From positions 1 through 29,703 of the IMG/VR virus record IMGVR_UViG_3300030110_001840: a stretch of 29,703 bases of DNA; one strand, written 5' to 3'. Positions 3 to 19,471 of the stretch are shown here, piece after piece. A program made the translations under genes and the position numbers. The stretch's first letter is position 1. Every line of letters begins with the position of its first letter. Under the pieces are notes generated by a model that was given only the letters and a program-made list of their open reading frames with translations, searched no databases and had not been told where the DNA came from. This DNA comes from a virus.

Positions 3-89
3 AAATCAATAAAAGTAGAATCAAAAATAAATGATAGTTTGTGGTTAAAGAATCCAGATTATGATATAACAGATAGATATGCCAGATAA
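3..89 (+). CDS. 3' end of an upstream gene (partial)
   Basis: This is an open frame entering from the left edge and stopping with TAA. The visible 28 residues are rich in K, D and N and end in DITDRYAR. Its stop lies 10 bases inside the small terminase gene, an overlap style seen repeatedly in this window, which supports it being real. Nothing can be said about its function from so short a piece. Confidence 0.45.
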   Translation, partial: KSIKVESKINDSLWLKNPDYDITDRYAR

Positions 90-456
90 AGGTAGGCCAT
101 TAAAGAAATTAGAAGATTTACCAGAGGGATGGGAGAATATTATTATTAACCTATCTAAGGAGGGTGCTAGTATTGTTGAATTAGCAGTTGCTTTAGACAT
201 TAGTAGGCAAACTTTATACAATTTATCTGAACGTGATGAGCATTTTTTAGACACCATAAAAAAGTGTAAGAGATATTGTGAGGCATGGTGGTTATCAAAA
301 GGCCGTACAGAGCTGGATAATAAAGACTTTTCTTATACTGGTTGGTATATGAATATGAAAAACAGATTTGGATGGGCAGACAAACAAGAAAACAAAAATG
401 AGAATACTCATACAGGAGAGATTAAAATAAACTATAACCTACCTAATGGAGATTGA
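79..456 (+). CDS. terS: Terminase small subunit
   Basis: This 125-residue protein probably recognises the packaging site on phage DNA and recruits the large terminase. A helix-turn-helix is visible at about residues 29-56 (GASIVELAVALDISRQTLY then an acidic helix), a typical DNA-binding segment of small terminases. The rest is basic and aromatic, ending in an N/E/T-rich tail. It overlaps the large terminase start by 11 bases, the classic terS-terL arrangement, and that context is the main reason for the name. Known: small terminases diverge strongly in sequence. Inferred: the exact DNA site and oligomeric state. Confidence 0.8.
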   Translation: MPDKGRPLKKLEDLPEGWENIIINLSKEGASIVELAVALDISRQTLYNLSERDEHFLDTIKKCKRYCEAWWLSKGRTELDNKDFSYTGWYMNMKNRFGWADKQENKNENTHTGEIKINYNLPNGD

Positions 457-1783
457 TATTAATCCATCTAAAAAACAGCATGAAGCATACAATAAACTAA
501 ATGATAGCATTACAAAAGAAACTCTTTACGGTGGTGCTGCTGGAGGTGGTAAATCGTGGCTAGGATGTGAATGGCTATTAGTAAACTGTTTACGCTATCC
601 AAAAACTAAATGGTTTATAGGCAGAGAAGAGTTAAAAAGGCTAAGAGCTTCTACATATCAAACACTACTCAAAGTAAGACAACATCACAATTTACCTCAT
701 GACTTCTGGAGGTATCAAGGGCAAGATAACTTTATTGAATTTCCTAACGGCTCAAGAATAGACTTATTAGATTTACAGTATAAGCCATCAGACCCAATGT
801 ATGAAAGGTTTGGTTCATTAGAATATACAGGAGGCTGGATTGAAGAGGGTGGAGAAATAAACTTTGGTGCTTATGATGTACTTAGAACTAGAATAGGGAG
901 GTGGTTTAATACTGAATACAATATACTACCTAAGTTACTTATAACATGTAACCCTAAAAGAAACTGGATGTATGAGGAGTTTATCCAACCATACAGAGCA
1001 AACAAATTACCCACTACTCAAGCATTTATAGAGGCTTATGTAACAGATAACCCATACATTGATAAAGAGTATATTATTAACCTTAAATCTATTAAAGACC
1101 AATCTAAAAAAGAAAGGCTTTTACTAGGTAACTGGGATTATGATAATGACCCTAACAGAATTTACGCAGATGATGGTTTAGATAATCTTCTTACTAATGA
1201 ATTTATAAAGCCAGAAGGTAAAGCTTTTATTACTTGTGATGTTGCAAGGTTTGGAGCTGATAAAACTGTGATAATGGTATGGCAAGGGTTTGTATTAGCA
1301 GATATTCATATAATAGATAAATCTGGTATTGATGAGGTTGTATTGACTATAAGACAAATGGCAAATAAATACAATGTTGCTAGAAGTAATATAGTACTTG
1401 ACCAAGATGGTGTAGGTGGTGGTGCTGTTGATGTCTTAAAAGGTTCAAAAGGTTTTACCAATAATGCTAAGGCAATAGTTAATAAATTTAAAAACGAGAA
1501 CTATAAGAACTTAAAAACTCAGTGTTATTTTAAGAGTGCTGAGAGGGTTAATGATTATGGTATTTACATTGCTCCTAATGTTGCTAATAAATGTTGGCAA
1601 GAGTTAAAAGAAGAGCTTGCAAGTATCAAACAGGCTAACCCTGATAACGATGAAAACAGGTTAGGTATAATTGCTAAGGATAAGATTAAAGAGAGCATAG
1701 GACGTTCTCCGGATTATGCAGATTGTTTTATGATGAGAGAGTTTTTTGAGCTTGCTAAGAAGTCAGTTAGAGCAGTTGCATAA
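446..1783 (+). CDS. terL: Terminase large subunit
   Basis: This 445-residue DNA-packaging motor combines an N-terminal ATPase with a C-terminal RNase H-like nuclease. The Walker A loop is GGAAGGGKS (residues 29-37), and the Walker B region is YTGGWIEE (127-134) with a double glutamate. The coupling motif is ITCNP (166-170). The nuclease acidic residues are D265 (TCDVARFG), D319 (VLDQDG) and D423/D426 (SPDYADCF). Length and motif spacing are normal for a complete enzyme. It cuts concatemeric DNA and drives it into the procapsid through the portal. The start overlaps terS by 11 bases. Confidence 0.95.
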   Translation: MEIDINPSKKQHEAYNKLNDSITKETLYGGAAGGGKSWLGCEWLLVNCLRYPKTKWFIGREELKRLRASTYQTLLKVRQHHNLPHDFWRYQGQDNFIEFPNGSRIDLLDLQYKPSDPMYERFGSLEYTGGWIEEGGEINFGAYDVLRTRIGRWFNTEYNILPKLLITCNPKRNWMYEEFIQPYRANKLPTTQAFIEAYVTDNPYIDKEYIINLKSIKDQSKKERLLLGNWDYDNDPNRIYADDGLDNLLTNEFIKPEGKAFITCDVARFGADKTVIMVWQGFVLADIHIIDKSGIDEVVLTIRQMANKYNVARSNIVLDQDGVGGGAVDVLKGSKGFTNNAKAIVNKFKNENYKNLKTQCYFKSAERVNDYGIYIAPNVANKCWQELKEELASIKQANPDNDENRLGIIAKDKIKESIGRSPDYADCFMMREFFELAKKSVRAVA

Positions 1784-3713: not shown

Positions 3714-3926
3714 ATGGAAAAGAAAGAAGTAAAGGCTAAAAAGCCAGCAGCAAAGGCTAAGAAGCCCGTTAAAGTAGAGTTAAAAGATAAGCTAAATGAG
3801 ATAGCAGAGTTTATTGATAAAACTATTAAAGAAGAGCGTAATAAACAACTAAGTACAGTTGCTTGTGCAAGGCTGGGAAAAGTAAAGCAAGATTTAATAT
3901 TTATTGCTAGAAACATTATCCAATAA
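3714..3926 (+). CDS. Small lysine/alanine-rich protein
   Basis: A 70-residue protein whose first 20 residues are mostly K, A, P, E and V (two KAKKP repeats), resembling the flexible basic tail of nucleic-acid-binding proteins. It is followed by a predicted helical part ending in LIFIARNIIQ. The open frame extends back to 3651, but that start lies inside the preceding gene and on top of the TATATTTA box, so the ATG at 3714 is preferred. The stop shares one base with the next start (TAATG). A histone-like role is possible but unproven. Confidence 0.65.
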   Translation: MEKKEVKAKKPAAKAKKPVKVELKDKLNEIAEFIDKTIKEERNKQLSTVACARLGKVKQDLIFIARNIIQ

Positions 3927-4723
3927 TGCTCAAAGTAACTATCCTAGATAAACCATATCAAATACGTAATAACTGGGAGGATAACACTATTAAACAAATG
4001 GGTATAGCACAAAACTACATTAGTGCTATGCCTAAATGGTTATCCAACTACATCTACTCAGATAAAGATGAGCCTGTAAGTGATTCTAAACTACTAGGCT
4101 TTTATATTGACTGGATAGAGATGTTTAGTGATATACCTAGAAAGTACTTAGAATCTGAAATAAGCGTTAATAAAGCTGATGAGTTAAGCCTTATTGAAAT
4201 ATTTAATCTAGTTGCTAAGTTTTTAGGTGAGCCATCACAGGATGATATAGGTACTTCTGATACTATCACACTAAACAAAATACAATACGTATTAATTAAA
4301 TCTGTTAAAACTTCTGGAGGTATTGATAAGATGTTAGGAGGTGCTACTTATAAACATTTCTCAGAATCACAAGCATTAAGTACTTTGTTTCAATCTAAGC
4401 AGTATAGAAAATGGAGTTACCTGAGTAAGATAACCGCAATACTATTTAGAGAATCAGAGGATGAGCAATACGATGAGGATATAATAGATATGAGAGCAAA
4501 GGCTTTTGAGAATCTTACAATATCTGAAGCGTATAAAGGGTATTTTTTTTTGCAAGAGCATACCAGCAAATTACAAAAGTCTATGCTAACATCTTTAACG
4601 GCAAAAAAGGCAAAGCTACGAACACGAAAAGCGAATCTATTGTTAAGAATCTTTTTTGGCAAAGCAAAGCTTATAAGATTGCTCAAAAGGGTATTTTCAA
4701 TCAGAAAAACAAAACTCCTTTAG
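3926..4723 (+). CDS. Unknown protein, zero-frame product of a frameshift gene
   Basis: The zero frame encodes 265 residues. The first 208 look like normal protein: a beta-rich start (MLKVTILDKPYQI), then helical, acidic segments. After the T9 run at 4543 the composition changes to a very basic K/R/L-rich tail (about the last 57 residues), as expected when AT-rich DNA is read out of frame. The -1 frame over the same stretch looks like real protein and runs to 4854. It sits in the late region and may be a tail-assembly-chaperone-like gene by analogy with lambda G/GT, but no homology was recognised. Confidence 0.6.
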   Translation: MLKVTILDKPYQIRNNWEDNTIKQMGIAQNYISAMPKWLSNYIYSDKDEPVSDSKLLGFYIDWIEMFSDIPRKYLESEISVNKADELSLIEIFNLVAKFLGEPSQDDIGTSDTITLNKIQYVLIKSVKTSGGIDKMLGGATYKHFSESQALSTLFQSKQYRKWSYLSKITAILFRESEDEQYDEDIIDMRAKAFENLTISEAYKGYFFLQEHTSKLQKSMLTSLTAKKAKLRTRKANLLLRIFFGKAKLIRLLKRVFSIRKTKLL

Positions 4724-4854
4724 ATAGTGTTTATAGTACAAATCTTTGGAAGGTGTTAGAATTTATTAGCATAGAAACAGCAGAGGAAACTTACAAAGCA
4801 GAGTTACAGCAACAGGCCCATGATGATGCAATGAAAAAGAATCGTAAAAAGTGA
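3926..4854 (+). CDS. Probable -1 frameshift fusion product (309 aa)
   Basis: Joining zero frame 3926-4549 to the -1 frame 4549-4854 gives 208 + 101 residues. The C-terminal part is normal in composition (for example KTPLDSVYSTNLWKVLEF and AEETYKAELQQQ). The -1 frame is closed by TAA at 4534-4536, just before the T run, so any switch must occur at or after it. The fused stop overlaps the next gene's GTG start as GTGA, as expected for a true gene end. This is either programmed -1 frameshifting or a single missing T in the homopolymer. Phage precedent: gpG/gpGT tail chaperones. Confidence 0.6.
4543..4587 (+). promoter_or_regulatory. Putative -1 frameshift signal: T9 slippery run and stem
   Basis: In the zero frame the run reads T-TTT-TTT-TTG (4543-4552), giving two overlapping slippery heptamers (T TTT TTT and T TTT TTG). 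Seven bases after the first heptamer is a perfect 6-bp stem: AGCATA at 4557-4562 pairs with TATGCT at 4582-4587 across a 19-nt loop. The spacing suits a stimulatory element. Both frames are open across the site. Confidence 0.6.
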
Positions 4855-5066
4855 ATAGAGAGGAGTTTCTAAGTGAGATTTTAGAAGCTTGTGCTTTTTT
4901 TCATTGGGAGTTTTACGGTGCTTATAAGAACTATCAGATAGTAGCAGTTACTCCCAGTTTTATACAAATATCAATTATACATTTTGAGGCTAAGGAGCAA
5001 TGGGCTGAGGTTGTAGATTTTGATAATGATGAGGGTTTAATTGATAAAATGTTAGATAAGTTATAA
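4851..5066 (+). CDS. Small acidic protein of unknown function
   Basis: A 71-residue protein with aromatic residues near the N-terminus (ACAFFHWEFYGAY) and an acidic C-terminus (VVDFDNDEGLIDKMLDKL). It starts with GTG, overlapping the stop of the frameshifted upstream frame as GTGA, which indicates coupled translation. The alpha-beta pattern suggests a small globular protein; no family is recognised. Confidence 0.55.
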   Translation: MNREEFLSEILEACAFFHWEFYGAYKNYQIVAVTPSFIQISIIHFEAKEQWAEVVDFDNDEGLIDKMLDKL

Positions 5067-6674: not shown

Positions 6675-6704
6675 ACAGCCAAAAATTATTGGCTGTTTTT
6701 TTTT
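6675..6704 (+). terminator. Rho-independent terminator
   Basis: A perfect 8-bp stem, ACAGCCAA (6675-6682) with TTGGCTGT (6689-6696), has a 6-nt loop and is followed by a run of eight more T. It separates the accessory block from the fibre and tail genes. Confidence 0.85.
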
Positions 6705-6745: not shown

Positions 6746-6985
6746 ATGGCTACAATTACAAATAAAACAGATGGCATTGAGATAGTTGATGCTGGAGGTG
6801 ATACCTACTTTATTAAGTATGGTAATGTCAAATTAATTAAGAGTTCATTAACCCTTTCAATCTACGATAACTCAGAAAACAGAAGAGGTGCAGATGCTTT
6901 AAAAGTAAAACATGCAGATGTTACAAGCCCTGTTACAACAGATTTAAATGATTTATACACAACTATAAGAGGATATATTGACTAA
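6746..6985 (+). CDS. Small paralogue of the fibre-like N-terminal domain
   Basis: A 79-residue protein that aligns over its full length with residues 1-81 of the next gene: both start MATITN, have GIEI near residue 10, a NVKL segment near residue 28, and end in a TxRGYID motif. It is therefore a stand-alone copy of that domain, from tandem duplication or domain loss. Probably a small virion protein. A TACATTTA box lies 6 bases before the ATG. The stop and next start share one base (TAATG). Confidence 0.7.
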   Translation: MATITNKTDGIEIVDAGGDTYFIKYGNVKLIKSSLTLSIYDNSENRRGADALKVKHADVTSPVTTDLNDLYTTIRGYID

Positions 6986-7863
6986 TGGCAACGATAACTA
7001 ATTTAACAAGCGGAATAGAGATAAATTTTGCAGGAGCAGTAACTTACATTAAACATAATAATGTTAAGCTACTTAAAAGAGGTACTAATATTAATATCTA
7101 TGATGATTCAGATGATGATGGTAATCAGAGAGGACAGGTTTACATAAGTATTCCCTTTTCAGAGGTTGCTAGCCCTAGTGAAGCTGATATAGATGCTTTA
7201 TATGCTACTGTAAGAGGTTATATCGATGTTTCTGCTGGTGGAGGTACTGATGCAAATGCTGTGCATGTAAATGTAGGAGGTGAGATAAATGGCATAACTG
7301 CTAAAGGTACTCCTACAACTAGTGATATTCTGTTAATAGAAGATGCTGCTGATGGCAACAATAAAAAGAAAATTACTATTGCAGATTTACCAGCTACTAG
7401 TGATGCAAATGCTGTTCATGTTAATGCTGCTAATGAGATAACAGCAATAACAGAAAAAACATCAGTAGCCAGTGATGATGAGTTTATTATTGAAGATAGT
7501 GCTGATAGTGGAAACAAAAAGAGCATTAAGAGAAAAGCGGTTGTTAATCCTATTGTAAGCTCAACAGCATCAACAGCCACATTAACAGTAGATGCTGATA
7601 GTACAGATTTTGCAGTAATAACGGCACAATCTGAAGGGTTAACAATAGCAGCTCCAACTGGTTCACCTGTTGAAGGTCAAAAGTTAATCATTAGACTTAA
7701 AGATGATGGTAGTGCTAGAGCAATTACTTTTAACGCTATTTTTAGAGCTTTAGGAGTTACTTTACCAACTACAACAGTAGTAAGTAAGATAACTTATTTA
7801 GGACTTGTTTATAATAGCACTGATACAAAATGGGATATAGTAGCAACTAAAACAGAAGCGTAA
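6985..7863 (+). CDS. Fibre- or decoration-like virion protein with internal repeats
   Basis: A 292-residue protein. Residues 1-81 are the MATITN domain shared with the previous gene. Two repeats follow at about 88-135 and 139-184, each with DANAVHVN, an EI-x-I/A-ITxK segment and an IEDxAD turn followed by NKK. The C-terminal part (about 190-292) is beta-rich, with EGQKLIIRLKDDGSARAI and a closing TDTKWDIVATK strand, a pattern I recognise from phage tail-fibre and baseplate-attached proteins. Probably a virion surface protein, perhaps trimeric. Assignment is by pattern and context. Confidence 0.6.
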   Translation: MATITNLTSGIEINFAGAVTYIKHNNVKLLKRGTNINIYDDSDDDGNQRGQVYISIPFSEVASPSEADIDALYATVRGYIDVSAGGGTDANAVHVNVGGEINGITAKGTPTTSDILLIEDAADGNNKKKITIADLPATSDANAVHVNAANEITAITEKTSVASDDEFIIEDSADSGNKKSIKRKAVVNPIVSSTASTATLTVDADSTDFAVITAQSEGLTIAAPTGSPVEGQKLIIRLKDDGSARAITFNAIFRALGVTLPTTTVVSKITYLGLVYNSTDTKWDIVATKTEA

Positions 7864-13256: not shown

Positions 13257-15851
13257 ATGGCAGAGAAGGTAATAGCGATAAAAGTTGATTTACAAGGTAC
13301 TGAAGCCCAGCGAAAAAAAATAGCAAGGTTAGAAACTGAGGTTAAAAAATTAACTAACAGAAGGACGCAATTAAATAAGGCTCAAAAAAATGGTACAATA
13401 TCTCTTAAAAAATATGGCCAAGAGATAGCAAAAGTTAACACAGGTTTAAAATCCCATAGAAGGCAGTTATTAGTTACTAGGCAGGAAATGCTGGGTATTG
13501 ATGGGTTTACTACTAGACTAGGTAAATCATTTAGAAAAATGGGTTCTAGTATAGTTGCTGGTTTTGCTGGTTTGTTTGCTGTTCAGCAAGTTTTTCAAGT
13601 TTTTAAAGATGCTATTAAAACATTAGAAGAGTTTGAGCAGCAGATGGCAAAAGTAAGAGCTGTTACAGGTGCTACTGAAACTGAGTTTAATCTATTAACA
13701 ACTTCTGCAAAGGAACTAGGTAGGGCATCTTTATTTACTTCAACTGAAGTGGGTAAGCTACAAGAGGAACTTGCTAAATTAGGTTTTACTACTCCTGAAA
13801 TATTAGCAGCATCTGATGCCATATTACAACTTGCTACCGCTTCTGGTTCAGACCTTGCTCAGTCCGCTGTTGTTTCTGCTTCTACTCTTAGAGGGTTTGC
13901 CTTAGATGCTACTGAAACTCAGAGAATAGTTGATGTGATGGCTAAGTCATTTAGCAGTACTTCATTAGATATAAATAAGTTTCAAACTGCGATGGCTACG
14001 GTGGCTCCGGTTGCTAAAACAGCAGGTATAAGCGTTGAGAAAACAACAGCATTACTAGGTACTTTGACAGATGCTGGTTTTGATGCTAGTACTGCTGGTA
14101 CTGCATTAAGAAACATATTTTTAGAAATAGGTAAAAGAGGGATAACATTAGAACAGGGATTAAGTCAAATAAGAAACAGCTCAGATAAAACTACTACCGC
14201 TTTAGATTTGTTTGGTAAAAGGGGAGCTGCATTAGCTATAACATTAGCAGATAATGAGCAAAAAAGTATTGATTTAACCCATGCTTTTAATGATGCTTCT
14301 GGTGCAGCTAGTGAAATGGCTGATATTATTGGTAATACTTCAGTGGGAGCTACTAAAAAATTAAGCAGTGCTTATGAGGGTATGATATTAACCATTGGAG
14401 AAGGTAGTGAAGATGGATTAACAAAAGTAAAGCTTCTTGCAGCTGAACTATTAAATGCTTTTACAGATGTAAATAATCAAATTAATAGATTGAGGGCTGT
14501 TGGTGAAAATTCAATAGGTTTAAGCTTTGGAAGTATAAGCGAAAGCCAAGAGGATTTATTAAAGCTTTTAGATGCAAATGATGAGTTTTTAAAAAACAAT
14601 GTAAGTAATGCTGAAGCGGTTAAACAGAAAAGAATAGATACTGCTGAAAACATTTTAAAATTAAAAGAGCAAATTAAACAAGCTCAAAAAGATGATAATG
14701 ATGATTTAGCAGAAAGTTTAACAGTAATAGCTAACATACAGGCAAAGTTTTTTAAAGATTTAACAGCTCAAAAAGACGCTCTAAAAAATGTAGCAGAAGC
14801 ATCTAAGGCATCATCACTACAAGCGGAAATAGAAGCTAAGGCATTAGATAAAAAAGCAGATGCAGTTGATAATGTAAAGTTTGCATTAGAAGAGCTTGAA
14901 GAGGTTGAAGATGATACTTTTGATTTTGAAGAAGAGCAAATACAAAAATCAACAAATGCTATTCTAGCGTTTTCAGATTTAATAAATGAGGAGTCGGAAA
15001 AACGTTTAGAGATTGCAGAAAATGAAGCGGAGAGAAAGCTTGATATTGATTCTGCTGCTATGCAAAATGAATTAGAACAGAGGGCAAACTTTGAGCAGGA
15101 ACTACAAAGGCAAAAAATAGATTTAGCTGAACAGGCTGCTAGTGCCTTAGTTGATGTTTCTAATAGAAGAGTTGAGAGAGAAAAAACTTTAGAACTGGCT
15201 GCTTTAGATTCAAGATTACAACAGGGTTTAATATCACAAGAAGAGTTTGAAAAACAAAGAGAAGCGATAGAAAGAAAAGCCTTTAACAGGCAAAAAAGGC
15301 TTGAAATAGCACAGATTGCTATTAGTTTAGCTAGAGAAATAGCAAACATTGCAGCAAATTCAGCAGGTAACCCATTAAATGCGTTTACTTTTGGTAGTGC
15401 AGGAGCTGCCCAGAATATTGCTTTAGCAGGTATTGCCACGGCTAGAAGTGCAGTACAGGCAGGTATAGTTGCTAGTCAAAAATTTGCAGAAGGAGGTTAT
15501 ACAGGTGCTGGTTTTGGTTCTCCTGATAGCTCAGGATTTAAGCAAGCTGGAGTAGTGCATGAGGGTGAATATGTAGTACCTAAGAATGTACTAGAATCAC
15601 AAAGAGGTAGTAGCTTAGTAGGTGCATTAGAAGCCATGCGTACAAGTAGGCCCCAGCCATTTAGTAATATAGGTTTTGCTAATGGTGGTTTTGCTGGTGC
15701 TAGCGGTGTTGATATATCTGGTTTACGTAATGAAATTACTCAAGCTGTTGCAAGTTCAATAGGAGCTATTCAAGTTGTTAATAATGCTACTGATACAATC
15801 ACACAAGCTGCAAAGGTTAACAACATACAATCAGAAGCTACATTTGGTTAA
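13257..15851 (+). CDS. Tail tape measure protein (TP901 type)
   Basis: An 864-residue protein that sets tail length. A coiled coil occupies about residues 18-75. Residues about 122-330 match the TP901 tape-measure core: FEQQMAKVRAVTGA, LGRASLFTSTEVGKLQEELA, GISVEKTTALLGTLTDAG and STAGTALRNIFLEI. Then come long charged helices (about 430-680), a hydrophobic A/I/G segment and a G-rich end with AGVVHEGEYVVPKNVL, often found in these proteins. At about 1.5 angstrom per residue the tail would be near 130 nm (estimate). It sits after, not before, the tail-tip genes. Confidence 0.9.
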   Translation: MAEKVIAIKVDLQGTEAQRKKIARLETEVKKLTNRRTQLNKAQKNGTISLKKYGQEIAKVNTGLKSHRRQLLVTRQEMLGIDGFTTRLGKSFRKMGSSIVAGFAGLFAVQQVFQVFKDAIKTLEEFEQQMAKVRAVTGATETEFNLLTTSAKELGRASLFTSTEVGKLQEELAKLGFTTPEILAASDAILQLATASGSDLAQSAVVSASTLRGFALDATETQRIVDVMAKSFSSTSLDINKFQTAMATVAPVAKTAGISVEKTTALLGTLTDAGFDASTAGTALRNIFLEIGKRGITLEQGLSQIRNSSDKTTTALDLFGKRGAALAITLADNEQKSIDLTHAFNDASGAASEMADIIGNTSVGATKKLSSAYEGMILTIGEGSEDGLTKVKLLAAELLNAFTDVNNQINRLRAVGENSIGLSFGSISESQEDLLKLLDANDEFLKNNVSNAEAVKQKRIDTAENILKLKEQIKQAQKDDNDDLAESLTVIANIQAKFFKDLTAQKDALKNVAEASKASSLQAEIEAKALDKKADAVDNVKFALEELEEVEDDTFDFEEEQIQKSTNAILAFSDLINEESEKRLEIAENEAERKLDIDSAAMQNELEQRANFEQELQRQKIDLAEQAASALVDVSNRRVEREKTLELAALDSRLQQGLISQEEFEKQREAIERKAFNRQKRLEIAQIAISLAREIANIAANSAGNPLNAFTFGSAGAAQNIALAGIATARSAVQAGIVASQKFAEGGYTGAGFGSPDSSGFKQAGVVHEGEYVVPKNVLESQRGSSLVGALEAMRTSRPQPFSNIGFANGGFAGASGVDISGLRNEITQAVASSIGAIQVVNNATDTITQAAKVNNIQSEATFG

Positions 15852-15869: not shown

Positions 15870-16100
15870 ATGTGGTTAACTAGTTTATTCGGTAAGGCAA
15901 AAAATATAAGCAGTGAATTATCAAGTTATCAAAAGAAATTAAAAAGGCTTAACATTTGTGAAGGTTGCAACGATAAAAGAGATAACTTTAGATTCCTATG
16001 GTTTGAAAAAGAGGGAATATCACAGTGCGGTATTTGTAAATGTGCTTTAATAGATAAAACAATATGGGAAGATGAGCAATGTCCTAAAGGTAAATGGTAG
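15870..16100 (+). CDS. Small zinc-ribbon-like protein
   Basis: A 76-residue protein with six cysteines: C30-x2-C33 and C53-x2-C56-x-C58, plus C71 (CPKGKW). The paired CxxC motifs about 20 residues apart look like a zinc ribbon. The N-terminal half is amphipathic (MWLTSLFGKAKNISSELSSY). Probably metal binding; the role is unknown. The end overlaps the next start by 7 bases. Confidence 0.6.
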   Translation: MWLTSLFGKAKNISSELSSYQKKLKRLNICEGCNDKRDNFRFLWFEKEGISQCGICKCALIDKTIWEDEQCPKGKW

Positions 16101-16333
16101 ATTTTGATGTAAATAAAAACTTAGAAAACTTAGACCAGCAAGAGAGGCTAAGTATTAAAGAGGCTATTATTAAAACTCATGGAAAAATGTTTCCATGTAG
16201 TAAAAGCCTTGAATATTTATCAGACCTATTTAAAGAGAATGTTGAACCAAACTTTAAGATTTCATGTGGACGGTGCAAAAGGAGAATAATAAACTTTTGG
16301 AAGCAGAGGCTAGAGAATTGGCAAATGTACTAA
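16094..16333 (+). CDS. Small protein with a CxxC motif
   Basis: A 79-residue protein, helical, with C35 and a C58-x2-C61 motif within ISCGRCKRRIINFWKQRLENW. It starts inside the zinc-ribbon gene and overlaps the next gene by up to 70 bases. Its cysteine-bearing C-terminus and position suggest a functional link with the preceding protein. No family is assigned. Confidence 0.5.
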   Translation: MVDFDVNKNLENLDQQERLSIKEAIIKTHGKMFPCSKSLEYLSDLFKENVEPNFKISCGRCKRRIINFWKQRLENWQMY

Positions 16334-16566
16334 ATGATACTTTGTTTAGTGTAGTTAATAATGCTAATGATATAAAACATGCTACTGAGTTATTATTAAG
16401 CACTGGTTTAATTAATCAAAAGGCTGTAAGAAATATGGCTGTAATTAATGATTACCATATAATGCGAAAGAATCCTTTAATGATGATGAAGGATATTTAT
16501 TATAACCTATCTGTTAAGTATGATATTTCTGTTAATCTGGTTATAAAAATTGTGTTACAAAAATAA
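16264..16566 (+). CDS. Small helical protein of unknown function
   Basis: A 100-residue helical protein. A GTG at 16273 is an alternative start (giving MQKENNKLLEAEARELA) that shortens the overlap with the preceding gene to 61 bases. N-terminal part is amphipathic and charged; the C-terminus is hydrophobic (VSVNLVIKIVL-type). No motif is recognised. A strong hairpin follows, closing this transcription unit. Confidence 0.5.
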   Translation: MWTVQKENNKLLEAEARELANVLNDTLFSVVNNANDIKHATELLLSTGLINQKAVRNMAVINDYHIMRKNPLMMMKDIYYNLSVKYDISVNLVIKIVLQK

Positions 16567-18830: not shown

Positions 18831-19400
18831 ATGTCAGAAATTTCAACAGATATTTTAATTAATTGTAACGATGAAAACCGCAGAGGGGGTATTAAAAGAG
18901 TATTCGTTATTAATAAAGATGATGTAACAAGTTTCACAGCCTCTACTGATAATCATAGCTATACAGCAGTTACTTTAAGTACTACTGATGATAAGTTTTT
19001 TGAGATTGAAGGAGAGTTAGAAACTAAGTTATATAGCTCAGAGGGTTCTCGTGAGAATGGTTCTATTTCTTATGAAACTTCTTTAGAGGTGTTTTCTCCA
19101 AAAATGGAGAAAGTAAAAGCAAAAGGAATTAATTCATATGTTGAGTCATGTGGTTTAGTTGTAATATTTGAAACTTACAACAAAGAAACTAATGATAATA
19201 AAGCTTTTGTACTAGGTTATGATGAAATCATGGGTAAAGATGCATCAGTTGATGCTATTGCTAATGAAGTTTTAGAGGCTGAGTTACAAGGGCAAAACGG
19301 ATATACAGTTACTTTTGCTGGTAAACAAGCCCAGCTAGTAAGGGAGTTTGTAGGTTCAATTACTACTAATAGCTCCGGTACAGTATCACTAGGTTCATAA
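18831..19400 (+). CDS. Probable major tail tube protein
   Basis: A 189-residue protein of mixed beta character (RVFVINKDDVTSFTAST, KFFEIEGELETKLYSS, GSISYETSLEVFSP, GLVVIFETYNKE), closing with a T/S/G-rich strand region. Size and beta content fit a major tail subunit. The gene is alone between two terminators, as expected for a virion protein needed in large amounts. An alternative is a capsid decoration protein. A weak TAAATTTT box lies 6 bases before the ATG. Confidence 0.55.
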   Translation: MSEISTDILINCNDENRRGGIKRVFVINKDDVTSFTASTDNHSYTAVTLSTTDDKFFEIEGELETKLYSSEGSRENGSISYETSLEVFSPKMEKVKAKGINSYVESCGLVVIFETYNKETNDNKAFVLGYDEIMGKDASVDAIANEVLEAELQGQNGYTVTFAGKQAQLVREFVGSITTNSSGTVSLGS

Positions 19401-19438: not shown

Positions 19439-19471
19439 GGGAGAGCAGTTATGTGTTCTCCCTTTTTTTTT
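19439..19471 (+). terminator. Rho-independent terminator
   Basis: GGGAGAGC (19439-19446) pairs with GTTCTCCC (19455-19462; one G-T wobble), 8-nt loop, nine-T tail. A smaller hairpin GTTGC-TTT-GCAAC at 19420-19432 lies just before it. Together they close the tail-tube unit. Confidence 0.85.

Follow-up and report, generated by a model that had tools for sequence, protein, structure and literature searches.

A probable tail assembly chaperone gene with a predicted -1 slip on an invariant T9 run in marine phages

The use of a -1 frameshift by phages to make tail assembly chaperones was reportedly described by Xu, Hendrix and Duda in 2004. In the lambda type, the chaperone comes in two forms that have a common N-terminal domain and arise through a -1 slip (PMC5009743), and ribosomal slippage on U-rich heptamers is possible without stimulators (PMC4066793). 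Nine is also a common threshold, or slippage-prone run length, for RNA polymerase (PMC1088944), and the run is nine long in Thermus dnaX and in IS elements, where the slippage is transcriptional (PMC1088944, PMC5009743). Here we compare with these systems a phage gene for which a sequence-only reading had proposed programmed -1 ribosomal frameshifting and a parallel to the tail chaperone gpG/gpGT.

Reading frames of the locus and their conservation

The window, that is, the whole stretch of DNA analysed, comprises 29,703 nt of an IMG/VR virus record, and the gene under study is ORF 3926-4723. Judging from its relatives, the window phage looks like a Bacteroidota phage, and the phage hosting ORF 3926-4723 is most likely a long-tailed one. 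The gene order of the window is terminase, ORF 3926-4723, a tail module ending in the tape measure gene, protease, capsid and portal. Standard reading of the ORF would yield a form of 265 residues, and a slip back by one base on T9 a predicted form of 309 residues. Both have the same N-terminal domain of 208 residues, and the long form carries in addition a distinct conserved C-terminal domain some 100 residues long. The coordinates that the sequence-only reading had assigned to the T9 run and its in-frame heptamers, to the closing and subsequent opening of the -1 frame, and to the overlap of the -1 stop with the next start all hold (Table 1).

Table 1. Coordinates of the features of ORF 3926-4723 and of its context in the window
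Feature	Position	Strand	Basis or remark
Terminase genes	79-1783		Window context
Terminase large subunit, 5' context	446..1783	+	Pfam Terminase_3, 4e-10
Zero-frame ORF, predicted short product (gpG-like), 265 aa	3926..4723	+	Stop TAG 4721-4723; in relatives whose site is complete, 56-60 codons beyond the slip
N-terminal domain common to both predicted products, 208 aa	3926..4549	+	Comparison of 28 sequences, AlphaFold2 model, BFVD Foldseek matches
TAA closing the -1 frame 5' of the slip	4534..4536	+	Read directly
-1 frame ORF, T-like domain, 103 aa counted from the run	4537..4854	+	Reached only via slippage
Slippery T9 run	4543..4551	+	Read directly; invariant in 48 relatives, without synonymous variation
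In-frame heptamers T_TTT_TTT / T_TTT_TTG	4543-4549 / 4546-4552	+	Zero frame TAT TTT TTT TTG
Dual-coded zero-frame tail	4552..4723	+	Openness kept, charge unconstrained; from stop count and charge z
6-bp inverted repeat AGCATA (4557-4562) / TATGCT (4582-4587)	4557..4587	+	Present in the window, unconserved
Next gene	4851..5066	+	Start overlapping the -1 stop: GTGA in the window, ATGA in most relatives
TGA ending the -1 frame	4852-4854	+	Overlaps GTG 4851-4853 of the next gene
Tape measure protein (presumed client)	13257..15851	+	PhageMin_Tail 3e-29; PHROG tape measure 1e-52

Among the runs of at least nine A or T in the window, only the T9 run at 4543-4551 lies inside a gene. The other two, also T9 (6696-6704 and 19463-19471), are intergenic, each 5' of virion genes; a similar T run is found 5' of the g6746 homologue in several relatives (e.g. 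L019 6033, L024 12963), and these intergenic runs are possibly promoter or leader elements. Directly 3' of the tape measure gene, at 16094-16566, a pair of small ORFs shares 70 nt in a -1 relation; no clear slippery heptamer was seen there, and the overlap is probably ordinary. Adjacent proteins encoded at 6746-7863 have an alike N-terminal stretch (MATITN...G.EI...), which suggests duplication of a virion-associated domain.

Scans of IMG/VR recovered about 50 relative contigs, most of them metagenomic; the relatives are not independent samples. Several of the searches used peptide patterns away from the T9 site, so that the set of relatives is not biased towards T9. Exactly T9, in the same codon phase, was present in 48/48 relatives readable in frame, with amino acid identities in the N-terminal domain down to 59%; a further contig (L015), outside these 48, also carries T9, but both of its frames are disrupted by single-base indels elsewhere. 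The three Phe codons of the run showed 0 synonymous differences versus 271 expected (759 pairwise comparisons), and the Tyr codon nine bases 5' of the run varies freely (16 TAT, 7 TAC). The N-terminal domain is 60-98% identical to that of the window (28 sequences), and the -1 protein, previously described as looking like a normal protein, is indeed conserved, with 48-95% identity to the window among relatives. Within the overlap, identity averages 66% in the -1 frame and only 49% in the zero frame, and conservation of the -1 domain starts right at the T9 run. The check proposed along with the sequence-only reading, a comparison of the T run and of both frames in relatives, thus came out in its favour, as both frames are kept along with T9.

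The first internal start codon of the -1 domain in the window is codon 70 of 103, and no start codon for a full-length independent -1 protein was found in 11 window-type relatives (none before codon 33, mostly none before codon 60). In most representatives the -1 stop and the following start codon share an ATGA or GTGA, and translation of the next gene may be coupled to ribosomes that made the long form. No window-type homologues were found among sequenced bacterial genomes, nor did window-type queries against phage records return any; phrog_25418 matches the product across the frame junction with an E value of 0.001.

Beyond the slip, the zero frame stays open for its 56-60 codons in every relative with a complete site. 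Over -1 codons 4-54 of 23 representatives, 0 zero-frame stops were seen versus 58.1 expected, the expectation being computed from the -1 protein and codon usage. Control counts in other genes fit expectation (372 vs 380.8 and 376 vs 361.4), and 3' of the overlap there is no avoidance of stops (107 seen vs 84 expected). The probability of a frame open as far as observed ranges from 0.001 to 0.11 per sequence; these values are not to be multiplied, the sequences being related, and several diverged lineages each gave p <0.02. The openness of the zero-frame tail is under selection. Its charge matches that of random synonymous codings of the -1 protein (mean z 0.38), so openness alone is selected and the basic charge is a by-product of the -1 codons; a selected basic K/R-rich tail was rejected on this ground. 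The K/R/L-rich tail had been called unlike normal protein; it owes its basic charge to the -1 codons, but it is not junk, since selection keeps it open. The zero frame may be kept open for a functional tail, or because ribosomes are needed over the overlap.

P12024L-type loci

In Foldseek searches of BFVD, the N-domain model matched proteins of uncultured marine phages and gp40 of Nonlabens phage P12024S (prob 1.00, E 9e-3). In the isolated sister phage P12024L, gp40 lies directly after the terminase and carries T9 as CTT TTT TTT TAT, and the -1 frame runs from T9 into gp41. The two are annotated there as separate genes (NC_018272.1, 23946-24640), which is likely a mis-split annotation, and the record of P12024S, whose gp40 is 99% identical, is probably mis-split too. 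A gp40 scan yielded 63 loci, with a terminase match upstream in 56/63. Among the 62 loci with the motif, T9 was found in 61/62 and T10 in one, and as the T10 relative keeps the zero-frame register (ATC TTT TTT TTT TAT), a slip is still required. One of the search patterns for this second group spanned the Phe-Phe-Tyr motif and was degenerate, so that the Phe codons were free.

The gene order in P12024L (terminase, gp40-type gene, neck/tail genes, tape measure, protease, capsid, portal) is the same as in the window. The zero-frame tail has 16-25 codons in the P12024L clade and 55-84 in the other members of the second group, and the T9 run starts at codon position 2 in the P12024L group and at position 3 in the window group. 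The C-domains of the two groups align with a P value of 5e-4 at an hhalign probability of only 31%, and comparison of their N-domain profiles was not significant (prob 1.5%). A count of 0 stops versus 54 in the P12024L-type group was dropped as a test because it is partly circular, the overlap being defined by the open frame. Isolates with similar terminases run terminase-portal-capsid, unlike the window and P12024L; 11b, P12002L, phi10:1, Versailles, Harreka_1 and CRP5 were of no use as a comparison, their terminases being followed by portal or head genes.

Mechanism of the slip

The slippage, its rate and the chaperone function are inferred here, and both products are very probably expressed. 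As for the proposed programmed -1 ribosomal frameshifting, two-product -1 recoding is strongly supported by the comparison, and the word ribosomal proved not specific, since T9 fits polymerase equally. By the ribosomal route, a -1 slip would occur on U_UUU_UUU in a U9 mRNA. By the other, RNA polymerase slipping on T9 would add a U and ribosomes would then read the -1 frame of the U10 mRNA normally, with the same two products. We give the ribosome about an even chance and the polymerase slightly less than that, and both could act.

RNA-polymerase slippage requires the run alone, and it would account for a site with no conserved stem after it. The 6-bp stem noticed from the sequence is present, 7 nt beyond the first heptamer, but it is unconserved (paired in 65.9% of cells), alifold revealed no conserved structure 3' of the run, and with fold z-scores of -0.9 to +1.7 (pseudoknot-free folds) the region folds no better than shuffles. 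The AGCATA/TATGCT stem was hence rejected as a candidate and is probably not a stimulator. AAAGG sits only a few nt 5' of the run, with AAAGC, AGAGG or AGTGC instead in some relatives, and no conserved SD-like site was detected in the relatives alignment. As neither an SD-like nor a structural stimulator was found, the efficiency of the slip is not predictable.

The constancy of the run points to the polymerase as well: its length is nine in 48/48 and 61/62 loci of two diverged groups that differ in the codon position of its start, and runs of nine are otherwise near-absent from genes here. Moreover, a doubly silent TTC at the second Phe, which would keep the heptamer and break the run, is absent in 13/13 P12024L-group representatives, the chance of which is about 0.012 from a codon usage of 0.71. 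Nine is a slippage-prone length in many bacteria (PMC1088944), but for known tail chaperones the frameshifting described is ribosomal (PMC5009743), amino acids (hydrophobic codon, Tyr, Leu/Phe) in part dictate the flanking Ts, and every T9 contains an in-frame T_TTT_TTT, so ribosomes fit too. With an invariant T9 and no conserved stem, these loci offer a clean natural test of ribosomal versus transcriptional slippage. More tentatively, slippage of RNA polymerase on a T9 that is obligatory, and not ribosomal frameshifting, could be how a widespread marine phage lineage produces its two chaperone forms, with a long dual-coded tail under selection as the C-terminus of the short form.

Function and comparison with known systems

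ORF 3926-4723 probably encodes a tail assembly chaperone whose short and long forms, like G and GT, would arise by programmed -1 slippage. The parallel to gpG/gpGT is still the best functional reading, given the two forms, the common N-domain, the -1 slip and the location in the morphogenesis region of a phage that has a tape measure protein. If the lambda model applies, the short form (G-like) would be abundant and coat the tape measure protein, while the long form (GT-like) would be rarer and bring in tail-tube subunits; a putative tail-tube protein is encoded at 18831-19400. Structures were predicted for the two halves separately, with an AlphaFold2 pLDDT of 85.6 for the N-domain and a low-confidence model for the C-domain (pLDDT 69). 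The N-domain model matched in BFVD a ctCpR1 protein whose database annotation is 'Tail assembly chaperone' (prob 0.77, E 0.065). The products of the ORF had no match above cut-off in Pfam or NCBIfam, and a fold search of the PDB gave no significant match, the HK97 chaperone 2ob9 appearing only at E 8.9.

It is unlikely that the gene is recoded by a -1 slip into two products with some other role, such as a capsid or packaging factor in two forms. Such a role would fit the place of the gene, which in both groups is a short way 3' of the terminase genes, and the fact that no solved chaperone was matched significantly. Against it stand the lambda-type chaperone architecture, the tape measure proteins of these phages, the position of the gene ahead of the tail module, and the weak fold link to the labelled chaperone. 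The position near the terminase and not just before the tape measure gene had been noted from the sequence as at odds with the parallel. The gene lies about 8.5 kb upstream of the tape measure gene, and wherever a relative shows both the terminase and the tail genes, it is found between them. Because the relatives examined and P12024L have this near-terminase place in common, it counts as a trait of the lineage and does not speak against a chaperone.

Very improbable is a pair of separate overlapping genes, the second independently started and T9 incidental. P12024L is annotated in this way, but the -1 domain lacks a start before codon 33 in 11 relatives and yet is conserved from the run onward, and T9 is invariant. 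Homopolymers are error-prone and one diverged relative carries T10, but a true sequence of T10 with a single 309-residue gene, the alternative named in the sequence-only reading, or a pseudogene has a negligible probability against T9 in 48 contigs and 61/62 of the second group (isolated phage genome included), a zero frame held open far past the site, and a lone T10 relative whose unchanged register needs a slip as well; sequencing error, pseudogene and chance are excluded by these comparisons.

A likely tail assembly chaperone is thereby identified in marine phages that lack annotation, and also in an isolated phage, where the gene is recorded as two. If so, frameshift chaperones can adjoin the terminase and are missed when annotation rules restrict the search to the place just ahead of the tape measure gene.

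The gene resembles the transcriptional slippage genes Thermus dnaX, IS elements and Shigella mxiE in having an A/T run within a gene that would give two products (PMC1088944, PMC5009743), but these are not phage tail chaperones. As in lambda gpG/gpGT, one start would serve two products with a common N-domain, a -1 slip on the slippery heptamer leading into a conserved -1 domain, and the phage appears to be long-tailed and has a tape measure protein. Unlike in lambda, the gene follows the terminase at a short distance and is some 8.5 kb away from the tape measure gene; the slippery site is an invariant T9; and there is no detectable sequence homology. The slip in lambda is near the end of G, whereas in the window group the zero frame runs 56-60 codons past it, a long dual-coded overlap that is unusual for tail chaperone genes. 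Nonlabens (Persicivirga) P12024L and P12024S gp40-gp41 differ in the codon position at which the run starts and have very low sequence identity, but they are alike in T9, in a -1 frame leading into gp41, in the place after the terminase, in gene order, in the fold match and in the C-domain (P 5e-4).
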